IMG/VR virus record: IMGVR_UViG_3300044825_002172
Coordinates: 1-24,137 of that record
Strand: one strand, 5' to 3'
Length of the DNA stretch: 24,137 nucleotides
DNA from: a virus
A model generated the notes under the pieces. The model searched no databases. It had not been told where the DNA came from and worked only from the letters and a program-made list of their open reading frames with translations. The position numbers were made by a program, and so were the translations under genes. This document shows, piece after piece, positions 793-17,984 of the stretch; the first letter of the stretch is position 1, and each line of letters begins with the position of its first letter.

Positions 793-820
793 ACTATACA
801 CATCGATCGGTCGTTGCGAA
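793..820 (-). promoter_or_regulatory. Possible sigma-70 promoter for the leftward operon
   Basis: On the minus strand TATAGT (complement of 793-798) matches the -10 consensus at five of six positions. A TTCGCA (complement of 815-820) lies 16 bp upstream and matches the -35 consensus at four of six. Transcription would start near 786, giving a leader of about 29 nt before the ATG at 757. The proposed -35 lies inside the first copy of the 22-bp repeat (812-833), so a factor binding the repeat could interfere with this promoter. This is a by-eye match only. Confidence 0.4.
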
Positions 821-833
821 AGAGCGTAGTTTG
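812..833 (+). promoter_or_regulatory. 22-bp intergenic repeat, copy 1 (candidate phage late promoter or activator site)
   Basis: This copy differs from the other two by one base (GAAAGAGCG instead of GAAATAGCG). It lies in the divergent gap, 32 nt before the ATG of the gpW-like gene at 866. A weaker look-alike starts at 778, where TTGCGA and CGTA recur at the same 11-nt offset. No sigma-70 -10 box stands 16-18 bp downstream of TTGCGA. Confidence 0.65.
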
Positions 834-865
834 CATGAACGACTGATCGCCTATGCAATTTGCCT

Positions 866-1093
866 ATGGCGACCTCTTTCGACGCGCAGATCGCAGCCCT
901 GAACGAAGCCATCGCCGCCGGAGTGCGGTCGGTGACGATCCAGGGTGAAACAACGACGCTCAACCCCGTCGCGGGGCTGATCGCTGCGCGGGATGACCTC
1001 GTTCGCCAGAAGGCCGCCGCAGAGGCCGCCGCGGGCACGTCCAAGGCTCGGCCCGTGCGCTTGCTGCACTACGCCGGCCGGGGCTACGACTGA
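866..1093 (+). CDS. W: gpW-like head-tail joining protein
   Basis: This encodes a 75-residue protein resembling lambda gpW (68 residues), which joins the filled head and allows the head-tail connector to assemble. It shows the family layout: an N-terminal helix (AQIAALNEAIAAG), a strand pair (VRSVTIQGETTTLNP) and a second helix (VAGLIAARDDLVRQKA), ending in a short tail rich in Arg and Gly. An in-frame TTG lies at 860, but the ATG at 866 is preferred. The stop overlaps the portal start (TGATG), and gpW directly before the portal is the lambda order. In lambda a terminase gene precedes W; here the upstream genes run the other way, so packaging genes must be elsewhere. Confidence 0.8.
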   Translation: MATSFDAQIAALNEAIAAGVRSVTIQGETTTLNPVAGLIAARDDLVRQKAAAEAAAGTSKARPVRLLHYAGRGYD

Positions 1094-2970
1094 TGCCGAC
1101 GCGCAAGTCGGTGCGGCAAGTGGCCGCCAGCAAGCGAGCCGCTGCCGCTGCGCTCGACGCCCAGGCGAAGTACGACGCCGCTGGCTTCGGCCGGAGAATC
1201 AAGTCGTGGAACCCCGCGTCCAGCGGCCCGAACAACGCGCTCGAAGGGTTCGAGCGGCTGCGCAACCGATCGCGCGACTCCGTTCGCAACGACTGGGCGG
1301 GCTCATCGGTCGAACAGAAGTGGACGACCACGCTGATCGGCACGGGCATCGTGCCGCGGTGGGAGAACAACCGGATCAGCGACCTGTGGGAGCAGTCGCG
1401 GTCGGAGCTTGACGCCGACGGCGTTGCCGACGTGTATGGTCTCCAGGCGCTCGCCACCCGGGGGTTCATCGGAGCGGGCGAGTCGTTCCTGCGGAAGCGT
1501 CCGCGGGATCTGAACGCCCCGCTGACCGCCCCGGTGCAAGTGCAACTGGTCGAAGGCGACTTCTGTCCGCGCTTTGACTCCGACACGTGGACGGGGATGC
1601 CAGAGGGCAACACGATCCGTAGCGGCATCGAGCGGAACAAGTATGGCCGCCGCGTCGCGGTGTGGTTCTACAAGTCGCACCCAGGCGATCGGCCCGACCT
1701 CTACACGACGCCCAGCATGGGAGACCTCGTTCGCGTCCCGATCTCGGACGTGGCGCAGTTCTACGAGCCCCGTCGACCAGGCATGCTGCGCGGCGTGTCG
1801 GATCTAGCCTCTGTGCTCACGCGGTTGCGCGCGACCGGCAACCTCGAAGACGCGGTGCTCGATCGACAACTGCTGGCGAACCTCTTCACGATGTTCGTCA
1901 CGAAGACGTTGCCGACCAACTACGACGGGCAAGTCGATCAGAACACGGGGCTGCCCGTGTTCTACAACCGCAACGGTACGCCGCTGGTCGGGCTCGAACC
2001 GGGCATGTCGCAGGAACTGTTGCCCGGCGAGGACGTGAAGTTCGCCAACCCGCCCGAGCCCGGCGTGTCGCACAGCGACTACCTGCGCACGATGGGCCTG
2101 GGCACGTCGGCCGGCGTGGGGATGCCCTACGAGTTGTTCTCGGGGGACATCCGCGAGGTCGGCGACCGCGCGCTCCGCGTGCTCATCAACGAGTTCCGTC
2201 GTTACGCCGAGCAACGGCAATGGTTGTGGGTGATCCCGCAGCACTGCATGCCGGTCGTGAGGTGGTGGGCCGAAGCCCTGTACCTCAAAGGCACGTTCAG
2301 TCGGCGCGAGTACGAAGAGGCGATCCGCCCGTCGTGGAACCCGCAAGGGTGGGAGTACATCCACCCGGTGCAGGACGTTCAAGGCGTCAAGCTCGCGATC
2401 GAGACGGGCCTGACCTCGAAGACCGCGGCGATCCTCAAGCGTGGTGACGACCCGCGGGTGGTGCTCAAGCAACGCGAGCAGGACGCTAAGGACGAGAAGG
2501 CCGCCGGCCTCGTTCCGCCCCCGGCACAGCCCGCGAGCCCGCCGACCTCGGGCGCAAAGCCCCCGCCCGATCCGGCGGCGCTCATGATGAGCATGGCGAC
2601 GACGATCTCGGCGCAGATGGCGGGGACGTTCGAGAAAGCGCTGTCGTCGTTCGCCGACGGCGTTCGGGCCATGTCGTCGCAGCCGCGCGAAACGCATCTG
2701 CATGCCACCGTGGCCGCGCCGAACGTGGCCGTCGAGAACAAGGTCGAGCCGACCCCGGTGCACACGACGGTCAACAACGTCGTCGAGCCGACCCCGGTCC
2801 GCGTGGCCGTCGAGAACAAGGTCGAGCCGACGCCCGTGACGATCGAGAACACGGTCGAGGCGACGTTGACCATGCCCCCGCGTGAGTCGAAGACAACCGT
2901 CGTTTACGACGAGGAAAGCGGACAGATCCGCGAGTCGACCACGACCGAAACCACGATCCCCCTCCAGTGA
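1093..2970 (+). CDS. B: Portal protein, lambda gpB-like
   Basis: This encodes a 625-residue protein of the lambda-type portal family, which forms the dodecameric ring at one capsid vertex through which DNA enters and leaves. Residues about 53-87 carry the family's N-terminal pattern: RNRSRDSVRND, then a segment ending LIGTGIVP, comparable to the lambda gpB stretch ending VGTGIKP. The middle has the typical clip and stem features (SGDIREVGDRALRVL, then PQHCMPVVRWW). It is about 90 residues longer than lambda gpB. The extra part is a Pro/Ala-rich linker (residues about 470-500), a helical stretch, and a C-terminal tail with repeated ENKVEPTPV units, followed by a segment (TTVVYDEESGQI) like the ends of other phage portal-family proteins. 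It overlaps the W-like gene by 1 nt. Confidence 0.88.
   Translation: MPTRKSVRQVAASKRAAAAALDAQAKYDAAGFGRRIKSWNPASSGPNNALEGFERLRNRSRDSVRNDWAGSSVEQKWTTTLIGTGIVPRWENNRISDLWEQSRSELDADGVADVYGLQALATRGFIGAGESFLRKRPRDLNAPLTAPVQVQLVEGDFCPRFDSDTWTGMPEGNTIRSGIERNKYGRRVAVWFYKSHPGDRPDLYTTPSMGDLVRVPISDVAQFYEPRRPGMLRGVSDLASVLTRLRATGNLEDAVLDRQLLANLFTMFVTKTLPTNYDGQVDQNTGLPVFYNRNGTPLVGLEPGMSQELLPGEDVKFANPPEPGVSHSDYLRTMGLGTSAGVGMPYELFSGDIREVGDRALRVLINEFRRYAEQRQWLWVIPQHCMPVVRWWAEALYLKGTFSRREYEEAIRPSWNPQGWEYIHPVQDVQGVKLAIETGLTSKTAAILKRGDDPRVVLKQREQDAKDEKAAGLVPPPAQPASPPTSGAKPPPDPAALMMSMATTISAQMAGTFEKALSSFADGVRAMSSQPRETHLHATVAAPNVAVENKVEPTPVHTTVNNVVEPTPVRVAVENKVEPTPVTIENTVEATLTMPPRESKTTVVYDEESGQIRESTTTETTIPLQ
2725..2831 (+). 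repeat. Repeated segment encoding the portal C-terminal tail
   Basis: A 29-bp sequence at 2725-2753 recurs at 2803-2831, 78 bp (26 codons) later. It encodes VAVENKVEPT twice, with a diverged unit between them (VNNVVEPTPV). The period is 13 residues. The tail is rich in Val, Glu, Pro and Thr and probably forms extended strands on the portal outside its conserved core. Confidence 0.8.
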
Positions 2971-2981
2971 AGGACTGACCT

Positions 2982-3479
2982 ATGGCAATCGTTGCCGGCG
3001 ACATCAAGTACCGCCTCAGTGGCGGGGGTTCCAACACCGACCCAGCGGCGTCGTTGGGCGGCGCGGAGTCGTCGACCGACGCCGGGTCGACCATCTTCGA
3101 CAACGTGTCGAGCGTGGAGGGCGCAGCGGGCGATGTCGAGTACCGCTGCGTCTACGTCAAGAACACGCACGGCTCGCTCACCTACCAAGGCGCGAAGATC
3201 TGGATTCAGGCCAACACGCCGAGCGCCGACACGACGGTCGACATCGGCCTCGGCACGACCGCCGTCGGCACAGGTAACGAACAGACCATCGTCGATGAAC
3301 AGACCGCGCCCTCCGGCGTGACGTTCGCTGCGGCGGCCAATGAAGGTGCCGCGCTGTCGATTGGCGACATCCCGGCGGGGCACCACAAGGCTGTGTGGAT
3401 TCGCCGCACCGTCACCGCAGGCGCTGCGGCGGCCTCCGACTCGTTCACGTTGCGCTCCAAGGGAGACACGCTGCCATGA
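2982..3479 (+). CDS. Phage structural protein of unknown role, AGDIK-type beta domain
   Basis: This encodes a 165-residue protein with no signal peptide. It begins MAIVAGDIKYRLSGG and is rich in Ser, Thr, Gly and Ala, as expected for a beta-sandwich virion protein. Its first ~100 residues align without large gaps to the N-terminus of the 1226-residue tail protein at 17987: AGDIK lies at residues 5-9 in both, and the F-D/N-x-(V/I)-S block near residue 40 and the following strands correspond. This suggests both attach to related partners, or that one arose from the other. A strong AAGGA ribosome site (2970-2974) precedes the ATG. It overlaps the next gene by 4 nt (ATGA). Similar proteins occur in phage structural clusters, but I know of no assigned function. 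Confidence 0.7.
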   Translation: MAIVAGDIKYRLSGGGSNTDPAASLGGAESSTDAGSTIFDNVSSVEGAAGDVEYRCVYVKNTHGSLTYQGAKIWIQANTPSADTTVDIGLGTTAVGTGNEQTIVDEQTAPSGVTFAAAANEGAALSIGDIPAGHHKAVWIRRTVTAGAAAASDSFTLRSKGDTLP

Positions 3480-5923
3480 CCCCCGTACAAGCTGCGGCGT
3501 TGGCCGCCATCGAGGCCGGCGCGGCTACCCTGCGCGAAACGTTGACCGACGCGCCGCCCCCGCCCGCGCCGACCTACGCGATAACGGCGAGCGCCGCTGC
3601 GATCGACGAAGGGCAGGCCGTCGTGTTCACGGTCACGACCACGCACGTTCCGACAGGCACCGCGCTGCCGTACCGGCTGCAAGGTGCCGTGACGGCCGTT
3701 GATCTCGACGGCGTTCCGATGAACGGCGCCGTGTTGATCGGGCCGGACGGCACGGGCATGCTGGTCGTTCCGACTCGCGCCGATCTGGTGACGGAGGGCG
3801 ATGAGGTCATCGAAATGGTGCTCGATCTGCCCGGCGTGCTCGCCCAGGCGTCGGCCGTCGTGCGGGACACGAGCACCACGCCGCCCCCGCCCCCGCCGCC
3901 TCCGCCTCCGCCTCCGCCTCCGCCTCCGCCTCCGCCTCCGCCTGCGACAGCGGAACGCTTCGTCGAACTGCTGGACCCGGCGAAGACGATCACGATGCGT
4001 GCGTGGTTCGACGGTCAGACCTACGACCGCAACGCGAGGTTTACCCCGATCACGACGGACACGTGGCGGGCCGAGTTCCTTGCGGCGGACTACGCTGCGA
4101 ACAGCCTGCGCCCGTGTTCGGCAAGCGGCTACACGCTGATGGTCGCGTCGATCGACAACCCGACTGCTTGGACGCCGCACGCAAGCGTCACGGTGGCCGC
4201 TGGCGCGCAAGGTGGGTTCTTCACGTTCCGCGCGAACGAGTTCGCCGACGGGTGGTATTTGCTCAAGGCCGTCCCCAACAGCGGGGCCGAAACGAGCATT
4301 CCGGTTGCCGTGCACGTGCAGCGAAACGGCCCGGTGGCGTCCGAGCCGGCCATGTTCGTGCAGGCCGGGTCACACGATCACCATCACGCGTGGCGGTACG
4401 GGCGGACTGTGTACGCCAAGGTGCCGGCGCGGTTCGACCCGGTGCGAGTGCCGGCGTCGATCACAAGGGCTTACCCGCCCGTCGATACCGCGGTCCCGCG
4501 TTCGCAGTTGTTTGCGATCGACCTCGCGGTGCATCGGCCGGGAGACTGCTACCGCACTCGCAAGAGTAACGGCACGCTGAACGCCGCCAACCTCCAGTCG
4601 TATTACTGGTCGTACATGGTGAGCAAGTTCCCGGGGCAAGTCGCGCAACTCGACGGCCCCCGCGGCGAGGGCAACGTCGCGATGGCGACGCATCTGCAAG
4701 TCGGCCGAAACGGGGGCGTCTACTTCTGCGACCCGTGGCGGTTCGGGCACATCGCACCGGACGGCACCGTGAAGACGATCGCTGGATGGCGGCAGGAACC
4801 CCCGGCCCAGCGAGATTTCCCGATCGTTGACGAGTCCTCGTCCCCGCGAACGCTGGTCGGGGACTGGTCGGGCGTGCCGGTGTCGCGATGGGGCTTCCAC
4901 GAGTTGTGGGGGGCCACGTGGGACATGCGTACGCTGGTCGTCGACGAGGACGCCCCGCCGATCCCGAACGGCACAAACCCCGACGGCACGCCGAAGCTGG
5001 AAAAGCCGCACAAGTTCAACCCGCGATCGTTCCTCGCGGACTCGCAAAACAACCGCGTGTGCCTGCTGGAGTTCGACAAGGCGTCGCACTCGACCCCGGT
5101 CAAGGTGATGGAGTTCATCACCGGCTTGAACGACCCGTGGGATGTGGTGTGCGTCGACGGCGTGCTCTACGTCAGCGAACGCATGTCGCACCGCATCGCG
5201 GCGTACGACGCGACCACAGGGGCGTTCATCCGCGTGGTGGTGTCCGGTCTGCCGTTGGCGTCGATGAACGCCAGCATCCGCCGCATGCAACGCAACGCAG
5301 GCGTCTCGCTGGCCGACTGCCGTGCGCAAGCGTGTGTGGCGCCCGAAGGGCTGTATCACCTTGACGGGTGGCTCTACTTCGGGTCGCTCGTGCAGCAACA
5401 GGTGCGCCGTGTTCATCTGGTCACGGGCGCGCTCGAAGTCGTCGTGGCGGAGCCGTACGTCGACCAGGGCTCCAACTTCTTCAAGATCGCCGTCAGCGGG
5501 CCGAACACGTTCGGACCTGTTGGCACGACGTGGGTGTGCACGTTCGCCGGGGCGGGCTACGGCGGTCGGCCCGCGGCGTACCTGCCCGACGGCTCGAAGT
5601 GGGACTACGGGTGGATCGTTTCCGGCGAAGGCCCCGGCCGCGTGTGGGATGGTGTCGGCTACGCGTGCTCTGTCGGTGTGGGCCCAGGGGCCCTCGCGTT
5701 CGCGTCAAGCGAAGAGGGGGTGTGGAAGATCGGGCGCGTCCAGCCTGGGGACGCCTCGTGGGGCTGGAGTCGCATGCAGGCGCTCGAACGCCTGTGGCGT
5801 GACAACGGCTGGCATCTGACGCACGGGCCCGGCGGCTGGGGCTACTACGGCTTGCCGCTACCGTGGGGCGAGTCCCCCGAAATCGACGACTACCTCCGCG
5901 CGTGCGGGCACACGCAAACCTGA
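3476..5923 (+). CDS. Large accessory virion protein: Calx-beta-like domain, polyproline linker, beta-propeller
   Basis: This encodes 815 residues. Residues about 33-133 resemble Calx-beta domains of phage fibre proteins (ITASAAAIDEGQAVVFTVTTT ... GDEVIEMVLDLPG). Residues 136-156 are 21 consecutive prolines. Residues about 157-310 look like a further beta domain. From about 400 to 790 there are blade-like repeats of the NHL/SMP-30 propeller type, such as SFLADSQNNRVCLLEFD, DPWDVVCVDGVLYVSE and LYHLDGWLYFGS. The C-terminus has a Trp/Gly-rich stretch and ends near PEIDDYLRACGH. The start is the ATG at 3476, coupled to the upstream stop; the frame is open further upstream without support. The architecture fits an exposed fibre or decoration, possibly binding surface carbohydrate. 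That role is inferred. Confidence 0.7.
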   Translation: MTPVQAAALAAIEAGAATLRETLTDAPPPPAPTYAITASAAAIDEGQAVVFTVTTTHVPTGTALPYRLQGAVTAVDLDGVPMNGAVLIGPDGTGMLVVPTRADLVTEGDEVIEMVLDLPGVLAQASAVVRDTSTTPPPPPPPPPPPPPPPPPPPPPATAERFVELLDPAKTITMRAWFDGQTYDRNARFTPITTDTWRAEFLAADYAANSLRPCSASGYTLMVASIDNPTAWTPHASVTVAAGAQGGFFTFRANEFADGWYLLKAVPNSGAETSIPVAVHVQRNGPVASEPAMFVQAGSHDHHHAWRYGRTVYAKVPARFDPVRVPASITRAYPPVDTAVPRSQLFAIDLAVHRPGDCYRTRKSNGTLNAANLQSYYWSYMVSKFPGQVAQLDGPRGEGNVAMATHLQVGRNGGVYFCDPWRFGHIAPDGTVKTIAGWRQEPPAQRDFPIVDESSSPRTLVGDWSGVPVSRWGFHELWGATWDMRTLVVDEDAPPIPNGTNPDGTPKLEKPHKFNPRSFLADSQNNRVCLLEFDKASHSTPVKVMEFITGLNDPWDVVCVDGVLYVSERMSHRIAAYDATTGAFIRVVVSGLPLASMNASIRRMQRNAGVSLADCRAQACVAPEGLYHLDGWLYFGSLVQQQVRRVHLVTGALEVVVAEPYVDQGSNFFKIAVSGPNTFGPVGTTWVCTFAGAGYGGRPAAYLPDGSKWDYGWIVSGEGPGRVWDGVGYACSVGVGPGALAFASSEEGVWKIGRVQPGDASWGWSRMQALERLWRDNGWHLTHGPGGWGYYGLPLPWGESPEIDDYLRACGHTQT
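3881..3943 (+). repeat. CCGCCT hexanucleotide array encoding 21 prolines
   Basis: Seven perfect CCGCCT units (3902-3943) follow a less regular CCG/CCC run from 3881. The array is in frame, so gain or loss of units would change linker length by two prolines without breaking the gene. The polyproline run would be a rigid spacer between the Calx-beta-like domain and the propeller half, and its translation is likely to depend on EF-P. Confidence 0.95.
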
Positions 5924-5938
5924 CGTACAGGGGAAAGC

Positions 5939-6568
5939 ATGGCAACCGTTGTTTCGACGTTCGCCAAGACCGGCGGGGTCGCTCTACTGGCGCTCACGCA
6001 GCAGTCTTCCGGCACCGTCACCGTAGGGTCTTCCGTGGATGTTGCGGCTCTGCTCGCGGCGCGCATCTTCGTCAGCATGGGCCGCACGGTCGGGACCGCG
6101 TTGACGAACGAAGTGCTGTTTCGGTTGCAGGGGTCTGCAAAAGACTCCGGCGACGACGAGTGGTTCGACATCTATTCGTTCACGTCCGCTAACGGGAAGA
6201 CGGCGGCGTCAGCGACCACGTTGAACGGCGCAACTTCTGCGAACGCGTCGACGTTTGTCGTGTCTTCTGCGACCGGGATCACGGCGGGCGATCGGCTGTA
6301 CCTGCGCGAGACGGGAACCCCCGGCAACAGCGAGTTTGCGGACGTGAAGTCGATGAGCGGAACGACGGTCACGCCGTTCAACAACCTCACTCGGGCGCAC
6401 ACGAACTCGATCGCAATCTGCGATCAAGCGGAGCGGTTCTCGTGGACCGAAAGCCTTGTCGGCGTGAAGAGGCTGCGGTTCATCGTTGATTCCGCGACAA
6501 ACGCAGCGGGCCAAACGGTCGATGTGATCGCGTGGTTGGTGACGCTGGATTCCGTGTCGTCGACCTGA
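5939..6568 (+). CDS. Small beta-rich phage structural protein, function unknown
   Basis: This encodes 209 residues with no signal peptide and many Ser, Thr, Ala and Val residues. The outer parts (residues about 1-75 and 155-209) read as one beta domain (TVTVGSSVDVAALLAARIFV ... WTESLVGVKRLRFIVD). The centre (about 85-150; TFVVSSATGITAGDRLYL) resembles the short beta insertion modules common in phage decoration and fibre proteins. A strong ribosome site (AGGGGAAA, 5929-5936) precedes the ATG. It lies 15 nt after the propeller protein and 9 nt before the next gene, so the three are probably co-expressed. A virion decoration or fibre-base role is plausible but unproven. Confidence 0.6.
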   Translation: MATVVSTFAKTGGVALLALTQQSSGTVTVGSSVDVAALLAARIFVSMGRTVGTALTNEVLFRLQGSAKDSGDDEWFDIYSFTSANGKTAASATTLNGATSANASTFVVSSATGITAGDRLYLRETGTPGNSEFADVKSMSGTTVTPFNNLTRAHTNSIAICDQAERFSWTESLVGVKRLRFIVDSATNAAGQTVDVIAWLVTLDSVSST

Positions 6569-6577
6569 CCGGCAGGC

Positions 6578-8074
6578 ATGTCTCTCCCCGTCGATCTGCC
6601 GTGGGACCGGCAGCCGCAGCACGACGATTCTCCGGTAGTTGACTCTCGGCTACCTAAGCCGGGCCTACTGTGGTTGGCATCTGCCAATCGCGAATTGGCC
6701 CGCGGCATTGTCCCCACCGTCACAGGCACCGTTACTCGTACCCCGAACAAAGGGGGTATTGGCGCGAATTTTCTTTCCGGGGGCATTCTCGACTTCGGGG
6801 ACGTTAGCGACTCCGCGTCGTTTACGAACCTGTTGGTGTTCGAGGTTCCCTCGCTGGCTTCAACTGCGCTGTCTCAGTCTGACTACGACAACGGGGGAAG
6901 TGAGTCGGCAGGGTCGCAGTACATCGACATTACGTCGAGCGGCGACGTGCGGTTGGTGCGCGACAGTCAAGCGGTCATCCTTGAGACTACCGTCGGCGGT
7001 GTCGTTGCGGCAAGGCGCGAACACTGGGCTCTCGTTTCCTGGGACCAGAACACGGGCAGCGGGTTCATTGCTGTAGACGGGCGGATTCGAGTCTCGGCAA
7101 GCGTAGGCACGTCAAACTGGATCAACACCGGGCGGTATGTACTCGGTCGACGGCGGCCGAGCGACTTGAGCGCCACCAGCGACCATACCCAGTACGCGCA
7201 TGCCCGATGGGATTCCGCGCTTTCGCAAGAGCAAGCTCGTTGGTTGACCCGCGGGCGCTACCGGGCGTTGTTCTCCCCGCGGCCGTTGCAGGTGTCGGTG
7301 CCACCGATTGTCGCCGGAACGACCTCGGTCGAGTCCGACCTTACCGCCTCGTACTCGGTCGTCGGCACCGTCAGCAAGGATCTCGCGGCGAGTTACACGG
7401 TCGTTGCCGCCATCAGCAAGGATCTCGCGGCCTCGTACGCGGTGCAAGTCGCCGTGACGCAGGATCTCGCGGCCTCGTACTCGGTCGTCGGCACCGTCAG
7501 CAAGGATCTCGCGGCGAGCTACACAGTCGTTGCCGCCGTCAGCAAGGATCTCGCGGCCTCGTACGCGGTGCAAGTCGCCGTGACGCAGGATCTCGCGGCC
7601 TCGTACTCGGTGACGGGCACGGTGACGAAGGACTTCACGGCGTCGTACGACCTGCTGGCCGACTCGACGGTGACGAAGGACTTCACGGGGTCGTACACGA
7701 TCACCGGGTCGGTCGAGTCGGACCTTGCCGCGTCGTACTCCGTGCGCGAGGCAGTCTCGAAAGATCTCGCGGCGAGCTACATCGTCGTTGCGGCCGTTCA
7801 AAAGGATCTCACGTCGTCGTACTCGATCCAGGCCGCCGGCACGGGTGCAACGGCCGACGAGATCGCAACGGCTGTGTGGGCGAAGATCGGCGAAGATGGC
7901 TTGCCCTATGGCGACCTCGTGCGGGTGCTGCTGGCGGCTCTCTCCGGCCGCACGGAGGGCATCGGAACGCTCAACGAACGCTACCTGAGCGCCGACGGCT
8001 CGAAGACCCGTATCGATGCGACGTTCGACTCGAACAACAACCGCGTGGCCGTCACGCTCGACGGAACGCCGTGA
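6578..8074 (+). CDS. LamG-like virion protein with a 14-residue tandem repeat array
   Basis: This encodes 498 residues. Residues about 20-235 look like a concanavalin/LamG-type jelly roll (ILDFGDVSDSASFTNLLVFE, then REHWALVSWDQNTGSGFIAV), a fold that often binds sugars. It ends in RALFSPRPLQVSVP, a form I associate with phage LamG proteins. Residues 251-422 are about 12 copies of a 14-residue unit based on KDLAASYSVVGTVS. Residues about 424-498 form a separate end domain (ADEIATAVWAKIG ... RVAVTLDGTP) of a kind seen at the end of phage tail and fibre proteins. The ribosome site GGCAGG lies just before the ATG. An exposed fibre or decoration role is inferred. Confidence 0.65.
   Translation: MSLPVDLPWDRQPQHDDSPVVDSRLPKPGLLWLASANRELARGIVPTVTGTVTRTPNKGGIGANFLSGGILDFGDVSDSASFTNLLVFEVPSLASTALSQSDYDNGGSESAGSQYIDITSSGDVRLVRDSQAVILETTVGGVVAARREHWALVSWDQNTGSGFIAVDGRIRVSASVGTSNWINTGRYVLGRRRPSDLSATSDHTQYAHARWDSALSQEQARWLTRGRYRALFSPRPLQVSVPPIVAGTTSVESDLTASYSVVGTVSKDLAASYTVVAAISKDLAASYAVQVAVTQDLAASYSVVGTVSKDLAASYTVVAAVSKDLAASYAVQVAVTQDLAASYSVTGTVTKDFTASYDLLADSTVTKDFTGSYTITGSVESDLAASYSVREAVSKDLAASYIVVAAVQKDLTSSYSIQAAGTGATADEIATAVWAKIGEDGLPYGDLVRVLLAALSGRTEGIGTLNERYLSADGSKTRIDATFDSNNNRVAVTLDGTP
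7328..7843 (+). repeat. 42-bp coding tandem repeats, including a recent 126-bp duplication
   Basis: About 12 units encode variants of (K/Q/S)D(L/F)xxSYxVxxxVx. Within the array 7346-7471 and 7472-7597 are two three-unit blocks of exactly 126 bp differing at only a few bases, and the following block begins with the same sequence at 7598. One unit near 7650 has two extra residues. The near-identity of the 126-bp blocks indicates recent expansion by recombination or slippage. Confidence 0.92.
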
Positions 8075-8259
8075 ACTTCAACACCCGGCTGTTCGGGGGC
8101 CGGCTGTATGCCGGGCGGTTGTTTCGCGCGCCGGTAGGACGGCAGCCGTCGCCTGACGATCAGCGCATGTGGGGCGGCGGGGGCGCGTCCAGCCGGAAGC
8201 GCAAGACGCAGCGTCGAACGACCCCCGAGGAAGTATTTTTGTTGCTCGTTGCGAAATAG
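8071..8259 (+). CDS. Small basic phage protein, end of the accessory cassette
   Basis: This encodes 62 residues starting at GTG 8071, which overlaps the TGA of the repeat protein (8072-8074) as GTGA; the frame is open further upstream, but only as a shadow of that gene. The N-terminus (FNTRLFGGRLYAGRLF) has a repeated R-L-(F/Y)-x-G pattern that I have seen in small proteins of phage structural clusters. It continues with a Gly run and a basic stretch (SSRKRKTQRR). The last codons and the TAG stop lie in the second copy of the 22-bp repeat. The function is unknown; the small size and coupling leave some doubt that it is expressed. Confidence 0.55.
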   Translation: MNFNTRLFGGRLYAGRLFRAPVGRQPSPDDQRMWGGGGASSRKRKTQRRTTPEEVFLLLVAK

Positions 8260-8268
8260 CGTAGTTTG
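8247..8268 (+). promoter_or_regulatory. 22-bp intergenic repeat, copy 2
   Basis: This copy is identical to copy 3. Its core is GCGAAATAGCGTAGTTTG (8251-8268). It begins inside the last codons of the 62-residue gene, supplies that gene's TAG stop (8257-8259), and ends 33 nt before the ATG of the protease gene, almost the same distance as copy 1 to its gene. An AT-rich stretch (8232-8243) lies directly upstream. Confidence 0.7.
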
Positions 8269-8301
8269 ACCGTCGTTGCTACTCGAAAGGATCATGCCGC
8301 C

Positions 8302-9273
8302 ATGAAAACTTGGTTCCACATGAAGGCCAAGGCCGACGCGCCGAAAGCCGCCGAGATCACGATCTTCGACGAGATCGGGTTTTGGGGCGTCACGGCGGGG
8401 ACGTTTCAGAAGGATCTCAAGGCGCTCGGGGACGTGGAGCAGATCGACGTGCTGGTCAACAGCCCGGGCGGCTCGGTCGTCGACGGGCTGGCGATCTACA
8501 ACATGCTGTCGCAGCACCCGGCCACTGTGAACGTCAAGGTGATGGGCATCGCCGCGTCGGCTGCGAGCTTCATCGCGATGGCCGGCGACTCGATCGAAAT
8601 GCCCTCGAACACGTTCATGATGGTGCATTCGCCGATGAGTGGCGTGTTCGGCAACGCCGACGAAATGCGCGACACCGCGGATGTGCTCGACAAGATCGAA
8701 GCGTCGATCCTGGGCATCTACGCGAAGCGCACCGGCAAGAGCGACGAAGATCTCAAGGCGTTGCTCAAGGCGGAGACGTACATGACGGCCGCCGAGGCGG
8801 TCGAACTGGGCTTCGCGACCAAGGTCACGGATGCGCTGGAAGCCACCGCGTCGTTCGACATCGATCGGCTGCCGGTCAACGTGCAAGCCATGTTCCGCAA
8901 GCCGGCGGCCACCCCGAACACGCCGCTGGCCGAGCAGATCGTCGCCCGCGCCAAGACCGCCGGCCTGGAGCAGTTCGGCCCAACGTTCGCCCTGTGCGAG
9001 ACGTTGGACGAGGCTGACCGTGTGATCGCCGAAGCTCGCGAGATCGGCGCGCTGTGCCGCGTCATGGCGATCGACGACAAGCGGTTCGAGGCGTTCGTCA
9101 ACGCTCGCAAGTCGTTGCCCGAAGTGCGAGCGGCCATCGCCGCGGAGCGCGTCGCGGCGGCCGAGCAGACGATCGACACCGCGCCCCCGACAAAGCCCCC
9201 GGTGATGTCGCGCGGCCCCCTCCACACGAACGCATGGGCAAAGGCCCTGGGCGTGACTCTCCCCACCAACTGA
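8302..9273 (+). CDS. C: ClpP-type prohead protease
   Basis: This encodes 323 residues. Residues about 15-180 are a ClpP/SppA-like serine protease domain: [10 protein letters not shown] at 53-62 forms the oxyanion-hole segment, GIAAS places the nucleophile at Ser86, and FMMVHSP places the catalytic His at 109. The third catalytic residue is not certain. Such proteases cleave scaffold and other prohead proteins during capsid maturation. The C-terminal 140 residues are helical, ending in a Pro-rich stretch, and could carry a scaffold function as the lambda C/Nu3 region does, though no internal start with a good ribosome site is seen. A TTG at 8266 in the repeat is in frame, but ATG 8302 with AAAGGA 10 nt upstream is chosen. 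Confidence 0.9.
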
Positions 9274-9280
9274 GGACACC

Positions 9281-10138
9281 ATGTCGACCCTCACCCAGAA
9301 CATCGAAACGCTCGAATTCCTGCTGTCCGAGGCCACGGGTGGGCGCAGCCGCGAGGTCGGCACGGCCACCGTCACGGGCTCCGTGGCGCTGCCCTCCGGC
9401 ACCGTCCTCGGCAAGCTGACGCGCGCCGGCAGTGCGGCCAGCGTCACCGGCTCGATCGCAACGACCACGCTGACCGTCACGGCGGTCGGCAGCGGCACGC
9501 TGACTCCGGGCCAGACCATCAGTGGCTCGGGCGTCACGGCGGGCACGAAGATCGTCAAGCAACTCACCGGCACGCCCGGTGGCGTCGGCACCTACCAAGT
9601 CGACACGTCGCAGACCGCCTCGTCGACCACGGTCACGGCGGCCGGCGCGGTGTCGGCGGCGTACGCCGGCAACACCGGCAACGGCACGATGGGCGCCGTC
9701 ACGCTGTCGGCCGGCGCGAAGCCGGGCGCGTACAAGCTGACGATCATCGAGCCGGGCACCAACGTCGGCACGTACGTCGTGGAAGACCCGGACGGCCTGT
9801 TCGTCGGCCGCGGGGTCGTGGCCTCGGCGTTCAGTGCCGGCGGTCTGGCGTTCACGCTGGCCGACGGTTCGACCGACTTCGTGTCCGGTGACGGCTTCAC
9901 GATCACCGTCGGCGCTGGCTCGGGTTTCTACGTCAAGTATGACGATGCCTCGGGCGTCAACGGCTCGGACGGCGCGGCTGCGGTCCTCTACAACCCGCTG
10001 CCCGGCACGAACGGCGACTATCCCGTGACGCTGTTCGTGCGCGACTGCGAAGTCATCGGCGACCGCCTGAACAACGGGGCGGGTGTCGACGCGGCCGGCA
10101 AGGCAGACCTCGCGAAGCTCGGCGTCATCGTTCGCTGA
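9281..10138 (+). CDS. D: Head decoration protein, gpD-like with two inserted domains
   Basis: This encodes 285 residues, against 110 in lambda gpD. Residues 1-47 ([17 protein letters not shown] ... [11 protein letters not shown]) and 216-285 ([20 protein letters not shown] ... [12 protein letters not shown], ending LAKLGVIVR) match the gpD pattern. Between them are a Ser/Thr/Gly beta module at about 52-122 ([19 protein letters not shown]) and another at about 127-214 ([22 protein letters not shown]), both of types seen in other phage surface proteins. gpD trimers sit on the expanded capsid and stabilise it; the inserts would project outward. A GAGGA site overlapping the protease stop precedes the ATG. 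Position between protease and capsid protein is as in lambda. Confidence 0.82.
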
Positions 10139-10175
10139 TCGACCTCCAACCAATCACTCACAGGACGAAAGCAAC

Positions 10176-11183
10176 ATGCTGCTCGATGTCTTCAAGAACG
10201 ACGCGTTCCACTTCCTCGAACTGCAAACGGCGATCCAACTCGCGCCGTTCAAGCCGACCGGCATCGGGAAGATGGGCATCTTCCAGCCTCGCCCCGTGTC
10301 GACGACGGTCATCGCGATCGAACTGCGCGACGGCAAGCTGACCCTCGTCCCGAACGCCCCCCGCGGCGCGCTGGGTCCGGCGAAGAACCTCGAACGCCGC
10401 AAGTTGAATAACTTCAATACGCTGAACCTGCCGCAACGCGTGGCAGTGATGGCGGAGGAAGTCCAGGGGCTGCGGGCCTTCGGCAAGCAGACCGAGGTCG
10501 AGACGGCGATGAACCTGCTGGGCCAGAAGATGCGGGTCGCCCGCACCGACCTCGACGTGACCCACGAGTTCCACCGGGCCGGCGCGCTGCGCGGCAAGAT
10601 CCTCGACGCCGACGGCACGACGGTCATCTACGACCTGTTCTCCGAGTTCGGCGTGGTGCAACTGACGCACGACTTCGCGCTCGACGTGGACGCGACCGAC
10701 GTGCGCAGCAAGGTCGTTTCGTGCCTGCGCAAGATCGAGGACGCGCTGGGCGACACCGCGATGGATGGCGTCGAGTTCCTGTGCTCGTCGACGTTCATGG
10801 ACGCGTTGGTCGACCATCCCGAGGTCAAGGAGAACCTGAAGTTCGACAAGGGCTACCAGAACCGTTCCGATCTGCGCAAGGGCTTCGAGTACGGCGGCGC
10901 CACGTTCCGCGAGTACCGCGGCACCATCGGCGGCAATGCCGTCGTGCCGAACGGGCAAGCGATCCCGGTGCCGATGGGGGTGCCCGACCTGTTCGAGTCC
11001 TACTACAGCCCGGCGCCGTACATGGAGACGGTGAACACGATGGGCCAGGAGGTCTACATGAAGCCCCGCGAAATGGACTTCGACGTGGGCATCGAGTGGC
11101 AGGTGCTGTCGTGCCCGCTGCACATCTGCACGCGGCCGAACGCGATCGTCAAGTGCGGCCTGAACGCCGCCGCCATCGCCTGA
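10176..11183 (+). CDS. E: Major capsid protein, lambda gpE-like
   Basis: This encodes 335 residues, close to lambda gpE (341). It has typical gpE-family segments: an N-terminal DVFKNDAFHFLELQTAI, then KMGIFQPRPVSTTVIAIE, a middle helix (AGALRGKILDADGTTVIYDL), and the C-terminal part with YMKPREMDFDVGIEWQVLS and SCPLHICTRPNAIVKC. Family members have the HK97 capsid fold and build the icosahedral shell. The ATG at 10176 has AGGA at 10162-10165; the frame is open further upstream but without a supported start. The gene follows the decoration gene by 37 nt, and a short hairpin lies directly after its stop. Confidence 0.9.
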   Translation: MLLDVFKNDAFHFLELQTAIQLAPFKPTGIGKMGIFQPRPVSTTVIAIELRDGKLTLVPNAPRGALGPAKNLERRKLNNFNTLNLPQRVAVMAEEVQGLRAFGKQTEVETAMNLLGQKMRVARTDLDVTHEFHRAGALRGKILDADGTTVIYDLFSEFGVVQLTHDFALDVDATDVRSKVVSCLRKIEDALGDTAMDGVEFLCSSTFMDALVDHPEVKENLKFDKGYQNRSDLRKGFEYGGATFREYRGTIGGNAVVPNGQAIPVPMGVPDLFESYYSPAPYMETVNTMGQEVYMKPREMDFDVGIEWQVLSCPLHICTRPNAIVKCGLNAAAIA

Positions 11184-11186
11184 TCG

Positions 11187-11203
11187 CGATCGGCGGGCGA
11201 TCG
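11187..11203 (+). other. Short hairpin after the capsid gene covering the next start
   Basis: CGATCG (11187-11192) and CGATCG (11198-11203) flank a 5-nt GCGGG loop. The second arm reaches the first base of the GTG start at 11203, and the loop holds the only G-rich ribosome site candidate. There is no T-tract, so it is not a terminator. It could lower translation of the connector relative to the capsid protein. CGATCG is common in this sequence, so it may be chance. Confidence 0.35.
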
Positions 11204-11499
11204 TGAAGCCGGAAGTCGGCTTCGCGCTACGACGCGGGCTATCGCTGAAAGGCGAGCCCGCGTTGTTGCGTGGGGCTCCAGCGGGGAACGTGCATCTGGC
11301 GCGGGACGCGAACGTCTACGCGGGGATCGGAGACGTGGCCGACGACAACCCCGTGGTGCGGGTCGCGATCGCTACGATCGATGCCGCGTACGCCCCGAAG
11401 ACGGGCGACGTGCTGGTGCACCCGGACGGTACCTACCGGCTCGACCGGCTGTTCTCGAACAACGGCTATACCGCGGCGTACATCGTCGTGCCCGTGTGA
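11203..11499 (+). CDS. Head-tail connector, FII-like (tentative)
   Basis: This encodes 98 residues starting at GTG with a weak GCGGG ribosome site. The C-terminal half (AYAPKTGDVLVHPDG, then YRLDRLFSNNGYTA) corresponds to the end of lambda gpFII, where a G-D-x-L turn is followed by a strand with V-D-R and a final strand. gpFII seals the filled head to the tail. Position between the capsid gene and the gpZ-like gene is the same as in lambda, except that no FI-type gene is present. Sequence similarity is weak and the call leans on gene order. It could be another kind of small connector. Confidence 0.55.
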   Translation: MKPEVGFALRRGLSLKGEPALLRGAPAGNVHLARDANVYAGIGDVADDNPVVRVAIATIDAAYAPKTGDVLVHPDGTYRLDRLFSNNGYTAAYIVVPV

Positions 11500-12134
11500 T
11501 GGCTACGCGCCGGGCTCTCGTCGTCAAGATCGACTACTCGGAGGCCGCCGCGCTGGCCGATCGCATCGAGTCGATCACGGGGCGGGCGCGGCTCAACCTC
11601 GCAGCGGTCGAGGCGGTCAACGAGGTCACGCTGCGGGCCGAGCCCGAGCTACGGGCCGGCGAGGTTCGAGACATCAATCTCACCGAAGCCTATGTGGCGT
11701 CGAAGACCAGTACGACGCTCGCCGTGCGCAAGCCGACGGCGACGATCCTGACGCGGGGCGACCTCACGATCATGGGGCACTACCCGCTCACCCAGTTGAC
11801 CCAGCCGACGAAGACGACTCGCGTCACGGGTGACGCCTCGCGCGGCATCCCGAAGGGGCTCAAGCAAGCGGGCGTGCGCGCCGCGATCAAGCGATCGGCG
11901 GCTACCGAACAGCCGAAGTGGTTCACGATGCGGCTACGGCGCGGCACCGAGTCAGGCGACAAGGTGGGCGTGTTCGCACGCACCAGCGCCGGCAAGCTCA
12001 AGCACTACTACGGCCCCTCGCCCTACTCGTTGTTCCGCTTCCAGGCCGGCGCACAGGGCGGGGAGATCGCGGACGATCTGCGGCGTACGGCGCTGCTTCG
12101 CATGGTCGACGAGGTTGAAAGGATGATCACGTGA
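11499..12134 (+). CDS. Z: gpZ-like minor tail / head-tail completion protein
   Basis: This encodes 211 residues, near the size of lambda gpZ (192). An N-terminal helical part (ADRIESITGRARLNLAAVEA), a strand region (TSTTLAVRKPTATILTRGD), and a C-terminal basic segment (WFTMRLRRGTESGDKVGVF, then KLKHYYGPSPYSLF) fit the family layout. gpZ acts at the tail's head-proximal end so that joined particles are infectious. A GTG lies one codon upstream (11496), but ATG 11499, which overlaps the previous TGA, is preferred. The end overlaps the next gene by 4 nt. Confidence 0.75.
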   Translation: MATRRALVVKIDYSEAAALADRIESITGRARLNLAAVEAVNEVTLRAEPELRAGEVRDINLTEAYVASKTSTTLAVRKPTATILTRGDLTIMGHYPLTQLTQPTKTTRVTGDASRGIPKGLKQAGVRAAIKRSAATEQPKWFTMRLRRGTESGDKVGVFARTSAGKLKHYYGPSPYSLFRFQAGAQGGEIADDLRRTALLRMVDEVERMIT

Positions 12135-12595
12135 GCAGGTTGCACAAGATCGAGGACGTGGGTGATGTGGTCGTTACCCGGGTCGAGTCGATCCGAACGA
12201 CCAACGGCTACGAAACGGACATCGGCGCGACCGTGTTCCGCGGCCGGCGCAAGGTCGACGACTCGATGCTGCCGTGCACGTCCGTGATCGAGTCGGTCGA
12301 CGAGATCGAGAGCAGTGACGACGCGACCGAGTACCTGATCGGGCAACGGTTTCTGCTGTTCGCCTATCTGGCGTGCGACCCGGACAACCCCAACGTGGCC
12401 GCGCACGCGGCGATCCGCGACATGAAGCGCGCGATCTTCCGCACGGCAGGCAAGGCCGACGTGACCTGGGGCCGCACCATCAAGGTCGTGCGCTACCTCG
12501 GCAAAGACATCGGTCCGCGGGCGGATGGCTCGGCGTTTGTGTTGGCCTCGATCGAGTTCGTCGTGTCGTTCGTCGAGGATGTTGCTGACCCTTGA
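12131..12595 (+). CDS. U: Tail terminator, gpU-like (tentative)
   Basis: This encodes 154 residues (lambda gpU is 131) starting at GTG within a GTGA overlap. It has a mixed alpha/beta pattern: an N-terminal helix, a strand segment (GATVFRGRRKVD), a strand (RFLLFAYLACD), the helix AAHAAIRDMKRAIF and a last strand (LASIEFVVSFVED). This fits small tail terminators, which cap the tail tube and stop its growth. The assignment rests mainly on position between the gpZ-like gene and the major tail protein, as in lambda, and on the ending, where VVSFVED resembles tail-terminator family C-termini. It is the last gene before copy 3 of the repeat. Confidence 0.6.
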   Translation: MSRLHKIEDVGDVVVTRVESIRTTNGYETDIGATVFRGRRKVDDSMLPCTSVIESVDEIESSDDATEYLIGQRFLLFAYLACDPDNPNVAAHAAIRDMKRAIFRTAGKADVTWGRTIKVVRYLGKDIGPRADGSAFVLASIEFVVSFVEDVADP

Positions 12596-12596
12596 T

Positions 12597-12618
12597 CGTT
12601 GCGAAATAGCGTAGTTTG
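12597..12618 (+). promoter_or_regulatory. 22-bp intergenic repeat, copy 3
   Basis: This copy is identical to copy 2. It starts 1 nt after the stop of the tail terminator gene and ends 66 nt before the ATG of the major tail protein. It sits in an 89-bp gap, unusually long in a region where most genes overlap or nearly abut. Nothing resembling a sigma-70 -35/-10 pair at normal spacing is shared by the three copies. Confidence 0.7.
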
Positions 12619-12684
12619 CTCCGGCGCGGAGCAATAGCCACACTCTCTTCCGACCTCTCGTTCCACCCACAGGACTCGTTCAAC

Positions 12685-13434
12685 ATGGCAGCACAAGGCT
12701 TTCTCGGCGCGGGCGACCTCTACATCGCGCGCTACGTCAGCGGCGCTTACGAGGACTACAAGGGCCCCTACCAGTGCGGCAAGTTCGAGATCAAGCCGAA
12801 CTCCGAACTCAAGGAAATGACCTCCAAGGGCCGCAGCACCTACGGTCAGGTGATCGAGTCGGTGGCAGTGCCGCAGCCGTTCGACCTGTCCGTCGACCTG
12901 CGCCAGATCGACAAGGAATCGATCGCGCTGGCGTTCTTCGGCACGACCGGCTCGCTGTCGCAAGGCAGCGGCACGCTGTCGGCTGTCGACGTGACCGCCA
13001 AGCTCGGCGCCTGGGTGCAACTGACCAAGCAGGCGCTCACCGGGGCGTCCACCGTGACCAACGCCGCCGCGTCGACCACGTACGTCGACGGCACGGACTA
13101 CATCATCAACCGCGTGCTCGGTCTGTTCAAGGCGCTCCCCGGCGGCTCGATCACGAACAACCAAGCGCTCAAGCTGACCTCCGCGTACAACGCGATCACC
13201 GGCACCGAGATCAAGGGCGCGACGCAAGCCCAGGTGCGCGCCAAGTTCAAGCTCGACGGCATCAACTTCGCCGACGACCTCCCGGTGATCGTGACGGTGC
13301 ACGAAGCGGTCATCGCGGCCGACGCGGCGTTCGACTTCCTCGGTGACGACTTCAACACCCTGAGCTTGCCCGGCCGCATGAAGACGCCTGCCGGCTTCAC
13401 CGAGCCGTTCACCGTGCATCTTCGCGACGCCTGA
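12685..13434 (+). CDS. V: Major tail (tube) protein, gpV-like
   Basis: This encodes 249 residues (lambda gpV is 246). The N-terminus (MAAQGFLGAGDLYIARY), the strand block KFEIKPNSELKEMTSKGR, then PQPFDLSVDLRQIDKESIAL, and a central VDGTDYIINRVLGLFKALP stretch followed by KFKLDGINFADDLPVIVTV are typical of siphovirus tail tube proteins, which stack as hexamer rings. The frame is open from TTG 12616 in the repeat, but ATG 12685 with AGGA at 12671-12674 is the better start. It directly precedes the terminator and the tape measure gene. Confidence 0.82.
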   Translation: MAAQGFLGAGDLYIARYVSGAYEDYKGPYQCGKFEIKPNSELKEMTSKGRSTYGQVIESVAVPQPFDLSVDLRQIDKESIALAFFGTTGSLSQGSGTLSAVDVTAKLGAWVQLTKQALTGASTVTNAAASTTYVDGTDYIINRVLGLFKALPGGSITNNQALKLTSAYNAITGTEIKGATQAQVRAKFKLDGINFADDLPVIVTVHEAVIAADAAFDFLGDDFNTLSLPGRMKTPAGFTEPFTVHLRDA

Positions 13435-13460: not shown

Positions 13461-13497
13461 GGCCCGGGGGCACTCGTTCCCGGGCCTTTTTCTTTCT
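13461..13497 (+). terminator. Rho-independent terminator after the major tail gene
   Basis: GGCCCGGG (13461-13468) pairs perfectly with CCCGGGCC (13479-13486); two G-T pairs can extend the stem. A T-rich tract (TTTTTCTTTCT) follows from 13487. It lies 26 nt after the major tail protein stop and 18 nt before the tape measure start. It probably lets part of transcription stop, so that tail tube protein is made in excess of tape measure. Confidence 0.85.
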
Positions 13498-17585: not shown

Positions 17586-17984
17586 ATGACGATCGCTCTA
17601 ACCGTCAGCCCGACGACCGTCACGCTCCCCGTGGATCTGCGGTGGACCGACGAACTTGACTGGCACCCGGTGCGCCAGTCTGTCGAGCGCTCCCTGACGG
17701 GCGCCTTGATCGTCGACGTTGCCGCCGCCGTGCCGGGGCGCTCGATCACGCTGGAGCCCGAGAACGACAGTTCTGCGTGGATGCCGCGCGCCGATGTCGA
17801 GCAGTTGCAGACCTGGGCGGCTGTGCCCGGCCAGGAAATGAGCCTCTTGCTCCGCGGCGTCACTCACACCGTCATGTTCCGGCACCACGAGGGCGAAGCG
17901 CTCACGGCGAAGCCGGTTCTTCACTACTCGGACGTTGATGCGGCCGACTGGTATCTCGTCACGCTCAAGTTGATGAAAGTCTGA
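17586..17984 (+). CDS. Small tail protein after tape measure, function unknown
   Basis: This encodes 132 residues, starting at ATG 17586 with CGGAG (17574-17578) at good spacing; it begins 3 nt after the tape measure stop. It is beta-rich: TIALTVSPTTVTLPVDLRW, then SLTGALIVDVAAAVPGRSIT, then LLLRGVTHTVMFRHHEG, ending WYLVTLKLMKV. No domain was recognised with confidence. The place between tape measure and a very large tail protein is where distal tail or tail-tip hub components are usually encoded, so such a role is a reasonable guess. Confidence 0.6.
   Translation: MTIALTVSPTTVTLPVDLRWTDELDWHPVRQSVERSLTGALIVDVAAAVPGRSITLEPENDSSAWMPRADVEQLQTWAAVPGQEMSLLLRGVTHTVMFRHHEGEALTAKPVLHYSDVDAADWYLVTLKLMKV

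Follow-up and report, generated by a model that had tools for sequence, protein, structure and literature searches.

Predicted late-activator sites before three virion gene units in a fragment of a lambda-like siphophage

A repeat before three units of virion genes

The window studied here is the whole 24,137-nucleotide stretch of the IMG/VR virus record IMGVR_UViG_3300044825_002172, a contig that is probably a fragment. Gene identities were assigned with PHROGs profiles (Table 1), which identified no terminase gene in the 24-kb fragment, and Rfam and tRNA scans of the window were empty. Two open reading frames without a PHROGs match contain repetitive stretches of their own: the 498-aa ORF at 6578-8074 holds 42-bp tandem repeats (14-aa units) at 7337-7846, and the 814-aa ORF at 3479-5923 holds CCGCCT repeats that encode a proline-rich linker at 3879-3950.

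Two exact copies of the sequence CGTTGCGAAATAGCGTAGTTTG lie at 8247-8268 and 12597-12618, and a third copy, at 812-833, differs at one position. All three copies are on the plus strand, none is on the opposite strand, and no fourth copy was found within 3 mismatches in the whole 24,137-base record. The repeat core lies at 816-833 (one mismatch), 8251-8268 and 12601-12618 (both exact); distances to the -10 hexamers below are counted from the 17-nt core given in Table 1. Since shuffles that keep dinucleotide composition average only 0.02 matches per window at up to 3 mismatches, chance is excluded. An earlier note on this DNA had described a 22-bp repeat that occurs three times in one orientation and is not due to chance, and the position scan and the shuffles confirmed this. 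It had also placed the copies 32-66 nt before the first ATG of each block; the measured distances are 32 nt (ATG 866), 33 nt (ATG 8302) and 66 nt (ATG 12685). A possible 62-aa ORF (8071-8259) reaches into copy 2, where its stop codon lies, and copy 3 directly follows the stop codon of the tail terminator gene. The core reads as an imperfect dyad, GCnAAnTA-N3-TAnTTnGC, in which 6 of 9 pairs match, as the binding of a dimer would lead one to expect.

Table 1. Virion genes, repeat copies and predicted promoter elements in the window
Feature	Position	Strand	Remarks
Repeat copy 1, predicted late-activator site before the head-tail adaptor	812-833	+	one change; 17-nt core 817-833
Predicted -10 of copy 1, TGCAAT	854-859	+	20 nt past core; weak (G at position 2); inferred from family spacing
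Head-tail adaptor Ad1, first in unit 1	866-1093	+	phrog_2545, E=4e-11
Portal protein	1093-2970	+	phrog_21, E=2e-80
Repeat copy 2, predicted late-activator site before the head maturation protease	8247-8268	+	core 8252-8268
Predicted -10 of copy 2, GATCAT	8290-8295	+	21 nt past core
Head maturation protease, first in unit 2	8302-9273	+	phrog_133, E=2e-80
Major head protein	10176-11183	+	phrog_29, E=1e-50
Tail terminator (connector)	12131-12595	+	phrog_5078, E=9e-6
Repeat copy 3, predicted late-activator site before the major tail protein	12597-12618	+	core 12602-12618
Predicted -10 of copy 3, CACACT	12639-12644	+	20 nt past core
Major tail protein with Ig-like domain, unit 3	12685-13434	+	phrog_807, E=1e-37
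Intrinsic terminator between major tail protein and tape measure genes	13461-13486	+	11-bp GC-rich hairpin and T-run

The third unit had been taken to comprise the major tail protein and the tape measure protein. A simple joint unit is not borne out, since a strong intrinsic terminator lies between the two genes. A similar hairpin with a T-run is present at the same place in Curvibacter phage PCA1, Acidovorax phage ACPWH and a further relative (L004). Because this terminator divides the two genes and has its like in relatives, the tail-protein gene probably forms a short unit of its own that is highly expressed, with read-through into the tape measure gene.

A family of sites in related phages

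The exact 20-mer motif was found in no other IMG/VR contig, and capsid relatives at 33-41% identity do not carry the window's own motif. Shorter searches were set aside: a 14-mer matched 81 IMG/VR stretches, nearly all with a single match and microvirus contigs among them, and the 7 matches in bacterial genomes are about the number expected by chance for an 18-mer in 257 Gb, none sharing the flanking bases of the window copies. The exact sequence of the repeat is thus specific to this phage, but the repeat is a member of a recognisable family of sites. The family element, CGAAAT-N5-CG(CAG/TTG/TTA/TTT...), stands upstream of the head-tail adaptor, head protease and major tail protein genes in PCA1, in the Acidovorax phages ACF1 and ACPWH and in dozens of IMG/VR relatives, usually directly past the stop codon of the preceding gene.

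Judged by its virion proteins, PCA1 is the nearest annotated phage (major tail protein 57%, protease 47% and capsid 45% identity). It has six exact CGAAAT-N6-GTTGG sites, all on the late strand; five of them are at or beside a gene boundary, and four of these five begin with the first base past a stop codon. As in the window, the sites at 55191, 4727 and 8629 precede the adaptor, the protease and the major tail protein; the -10 hexamers predicted for the latter two are at 4764-4769 and 8666-8671. Both ACPWH and ACF1 carry CGAAATCGTGCCGCAG-type sites before the protease and the tail protein. A site with one mismatch stands before the adaptor of ACF1, whose sites at 4508, 10419 and 14736 on the late strand occupy the same three gene positions. 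None of these sites is marked in the PCA1 and ACF1 annotations. In PCA1 the head-tail adaptor is annotated with a start that overlaps the predicted -10 (L145:8230-8262, PCA1 55229-55261), and an in-frame ATG 11 codons downstream (55262) looks like the likelier start.

An alignment search of IMG/VR with the tail protein gave 80 loci, most of which carry CGAAAT (or CGCAAT, TGAAAT), 5 nt, and then CGCAG, CGTTG, CGTTA, CGTTT or GGTCG. A matrix of the family matched 157 sites on the late strand and 0 on the other strand (1.08 Mb). Column-permuted matrices gave 0-5 matches per strand and a reversed matrix 1 and 3, and unrelated phage contigs gave 0.085 matches per 20 kb, at a lower threshold. In these loci the matrix placed 60 sites before the tail protein, which were in part training data, and, independently of training, 37 before the protease and 28 within the gene that follows the tape measure gene. 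Enrichment of the motif in gene gaps on the coding strand of whole genomes, which had been proposed as a check, was positive in the relatives.

Spacing to a -10 hexamer

Non-redundant sites in front of the tail-protein gene, 42 in all and with copy 3 of the window among them, were compared downstream of the 17-nt core. All 42 have a hexamer of the form nAnnnT 20 nt (28 sites) or 21 nt (14 sites) past the core, and other offsets show it in 0-5 of 42 sites. Although the pattern was picked after viewing the alignment, and six doubtful sites were excluded in advance, neither choice could produce so large a contrast between offsets. A separate -10 at fixed spacing implies the host sigma-70 polymerase. 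The earlier note had favoured, beside an activator site, a promoter for a phage-encoded or phage-modified RNA polymerase, and had named an unusual sigma factor and a processing site as further options; the part on a phage polymerase is not supported. The length and single orientation of the repeat would suit promoters of a phage-encoded single-subunit RNA polymerase. Such promoters would form one continuous block that has the start at its end, whereas the family has a sigma-70-like -10 set apart 20-21 nt downstream; the virion genes are those of a lambda-like siphophage and not T7-like, and the PCA1 and ACF1 annotations contain no RNA polymerase. We therefore regard this possibility as extremely improbable.

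The in-gene site, present in about 28 relatives, has a -10 at the same spacing as the other family sites. It is mostly read as the codons CGA AAT, lies about 160 nt before the next gene, and in several phages copies the phage's own right-half type, e.g. GTTG in PCA1 and L182. The window has no such site: its gene at 17586-17984, with homologues in L147-L225, PCA1 and ACF1, has CAGACC instead. These in-gene sites bear on the idea that the repeat acts in RNA, as a processing site, an antiterminator loading site or a leader structure that starts each unit. Copies at or just past stop codons, between genes and in one orientation would be in line with it. However, a site of the same class lies inside a coding gene of about 28 relatives, a DNA-level -10 at a fixed distance is not expected of such an element, and there was no Rfam match, making an action in RNA highly improbable.

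We consider it very unlikely that the copies are operators, or stoperator-like sites through which a phage repressor would silence the late genes in the lysogen. The stoperators of mycobacteriophage L5 are likewise short, asymmetric sites in a single orientation at gene starts, a resemblance that speaks for this reading. The strict spacing to a -10, the restriction to the late strand and the position immediately before virion genes argue against it, as does the lack of exact copies in the early region of PCA1.

The predicted -10 elements of the window fit the family rule to different degrees. Copy 3 fits best, and several relatives share its hexamer CACACT and its spacing; copy 2 fits at 21 nt and copy 1 only loosely. 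The candidates TGCAAT (copy 1) and GATCAT (copy 2) are weak. With a matrix built without the window, position 12602 (copy 3) ranks first of all window positions on both strands, mainly due to its -10. The cores of all three copies score below zero on this matrix because the two bases ahead of the invariant G are TA in place of the family's CC, and copy 3 alone is rescued by its -10. The predicted hexamers of copies 1 and 2 end 6 nt before ATG 866 and ATG 8302. Since the predicted transcription start, about 6-9 nt past the hexamer, would then land on the ATG, the mRNAs from these copies may be leaderless, or another start may be used.

The TTG that closes each copy could open a -35, 17, 18 and 17 nt from the predicted -10 of copies 1, 2 and 3. 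The statement that the copies share no -35/-10 pair was thus only partly right. Copy 2 reads TTGACC-18-GATCAT and matches TTGACA at 5 of 6 positions with an 18-nt spacer; copies 1 and 3 match at 3 of 6. These pairs would favour ordinary duplicated host sigma-70 promoters, the repeat including the -35 region and no dedicated activator being involved. In that case it is difficult to see why conservation covers 17-22 bp upstream of the -35 and not the -10, which varies among the copies. Most relatives, moreover, have CAGG in place of TTG, yet keep CGAAAT and the spacing, and relatives encode activators, so we hold this explanation to be unlikely.

Mor/C-type activators and the predicted late circuit

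PCA1 encodes a protein of 138 aa (UZZ64568.1) that matches PF08765 (Mor) with E=1.4e-9 and phrog_836, 'late transcriptional activator', with E=9e-23. In ACF1, the gene Acf1_00012 (L269:3784-4233), annotated as hypothetical and near the terminase region, is a Mor/C-type activator by profile (E=1.6e-48). In most of the long contigs that cover the region, a relative of the PCA1 activator is encoded on the strand of the tail-protein gene, some 10-19 kb upstream of it; a few contigs seem to be circularly permuted, and there the distance is not directly readable. Most contigs that reach upstream of the terminase encode a Mor/C-type (PF08765, phrog_836) activator there. The Pfam Mor profile matched 9 of 11 activators and phrog_836 all 16 of a second alignment. 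The window, a fragment that does not cover this region, has no activator gene. A search of IMG/VR with the activators alone yielded an independent contig that the tail-protein search had missed (L278); on the activator's strand and downstream of that gene it carries three sites, and two of these precede the portal region and the protease.

A structure model of the activator (mean pLDDT 69.8, a modest confidence) gave one significant viral structural match, the Mor-like transcription factor of Achromobacter phage Mano (E=3.3e-5). It matched no PDB chain at E<=0.001, and a profile of the activators searched against the PDB did not find Mor itself. A fold from a single sequence was of too poor quality and was discarded.

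Mor-family genes were also found in relatives without the element. The presence of any PF08765 gene was rejected as a marker, for it does not separate carriers from non-carriers because other Mor subfamilies occur. When scored against the PCA1 activator, all detected activators of element-bearing phages rank above the rest, and one phage (L198) lacks the element yet has a fairly close activator. Two Stenotrophomonas phages with Mor-like activators and other virion genes, Suso and QH16, showed no comparable element in a crude comparison of gene gaps. No activator was detectable in ACPWH. This record (L146, MH727593), deposited as complete, has none of the annotated terminase and portal genes of its close relative ACF1, nor the activator region; given the missing terminase and portal genes, it is probably incomplete.

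At the Mu promoter Pm, a Mor dimer binds a 16-bp 5-6-5 element from -51 to -36, centred at -43.5, which replaces the -35, and the sigma-70 polymerase uses the -10 (PMC4390567, PMC4287176). The sites described here similarly combine an element of about 16 bp near -50 to -35, a -10 hexamer for the host sigma-70 polymerase and, in relatives, a PF08765 activator. The length and position of the element agree with those of the Mor element within 1-2 bp, its centre being estimated at about -41 to -42 rather than -43.5. In contrast to the 5-bp inverted repeat of Pm, the element here keeps a constant left half, CGAAAT, with a right half that varies from phage to phage, and the common CGAAAT...CGCAG form is not symmetric. 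Pm is without a proper -35; in the relatives the right half-site (CAGG, GTTGG) falls close to where a -35 would be. Mu has a single middle promoter where several are predicted in this lambda-like siphophage. The other Mu activator, C, acts at several late promoters (Plys, PI, PP, Pmom) through a dyad element that lies upstream of the -35 or overlaps it (PMC4461284, PMC4287176). One phage activator is likewise predicted here to switch on several late promoters, but with another site sequence and other genes, the adaptor/portal, protease/capsid and tail-protein genes of a lambda-like head-tail module. The late regions of PCA1 and ACF1 share the element class and the gene boundaries with the window and have a Mor/C-type activator before the terminase region; their right halves are GTTGG and GCAG, the window's is GTTTG, and both phages have extra sites. 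Lambda places a comparable head-tail gene module under late control. Its late genes depend on Q, with one late promoter and antitermination, unlike the several separate promoters predicted here.

Very probably, then, each copy is a binding site for a phage-encoded Mor/C-type late activator that recruits the host sigma-70 polymerase, a reading suggested by the match of the element geometry (16-17 bp, about -50 to -34) with the Mor promoter of Mu. The sites of the window are most likely late promoters of the sigma-70 kind that depend on an activator. The activator site was among the proposals of the earlier note and is well supported by the -10 spacing in 42 of 42 sites, the strand count of 157 to 0 and the upstream Mor/C-type activator of the relatives. 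The window phage would have an activator of its own, which would bind each copy at about -50 to -34 and replace or assist a poor -35 contact. This would bring host sigma-70 RNA polymerase to the -10 hexamer, which lies 20-21 nt beyond the 17-nt core. The adaptor/portal, protease/capsid and major-tail-protein units would each be transcribed from a start of their own at one of the three sites, and once the activator was made the late genes would come on together.

On the minus strand, 793-820 holds a sigma-70-like pair (TTCGCA-16-TATAGT) that points left toward the minus-strand genes, with its -35 inside copy 1. An activator on copy 1 could silence these genes while switching the late genes on.

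A more far-reaching idea, which we put forward tentatively and think rather doubtful as a whole, is that a large group of lambda-like siphophages uses several Mor/C-activated late promoters in which the fixed left half CGAAAT is combined with lineage-specific right halves (GCAG, GTTGG, GTTAG, GTTTG, GGTCGG) as mutually exclusive codes. The window phage would then represent a new code, and two of its three late mRNAs would be leaderless.

We found no prior description of these sites in the literature searched, which mostly left out subscription journals. The analysis gives a concrete late-gene circuit, with activator, site, -10 and targets, for a group of environmental phages that is widespread but has been little studied. 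Promoter positions are predicted with single-base precision, at coordinates that annotation currently misses, and the variation of the half-site offers a natural set for learning how Mor/C activators read DNA.
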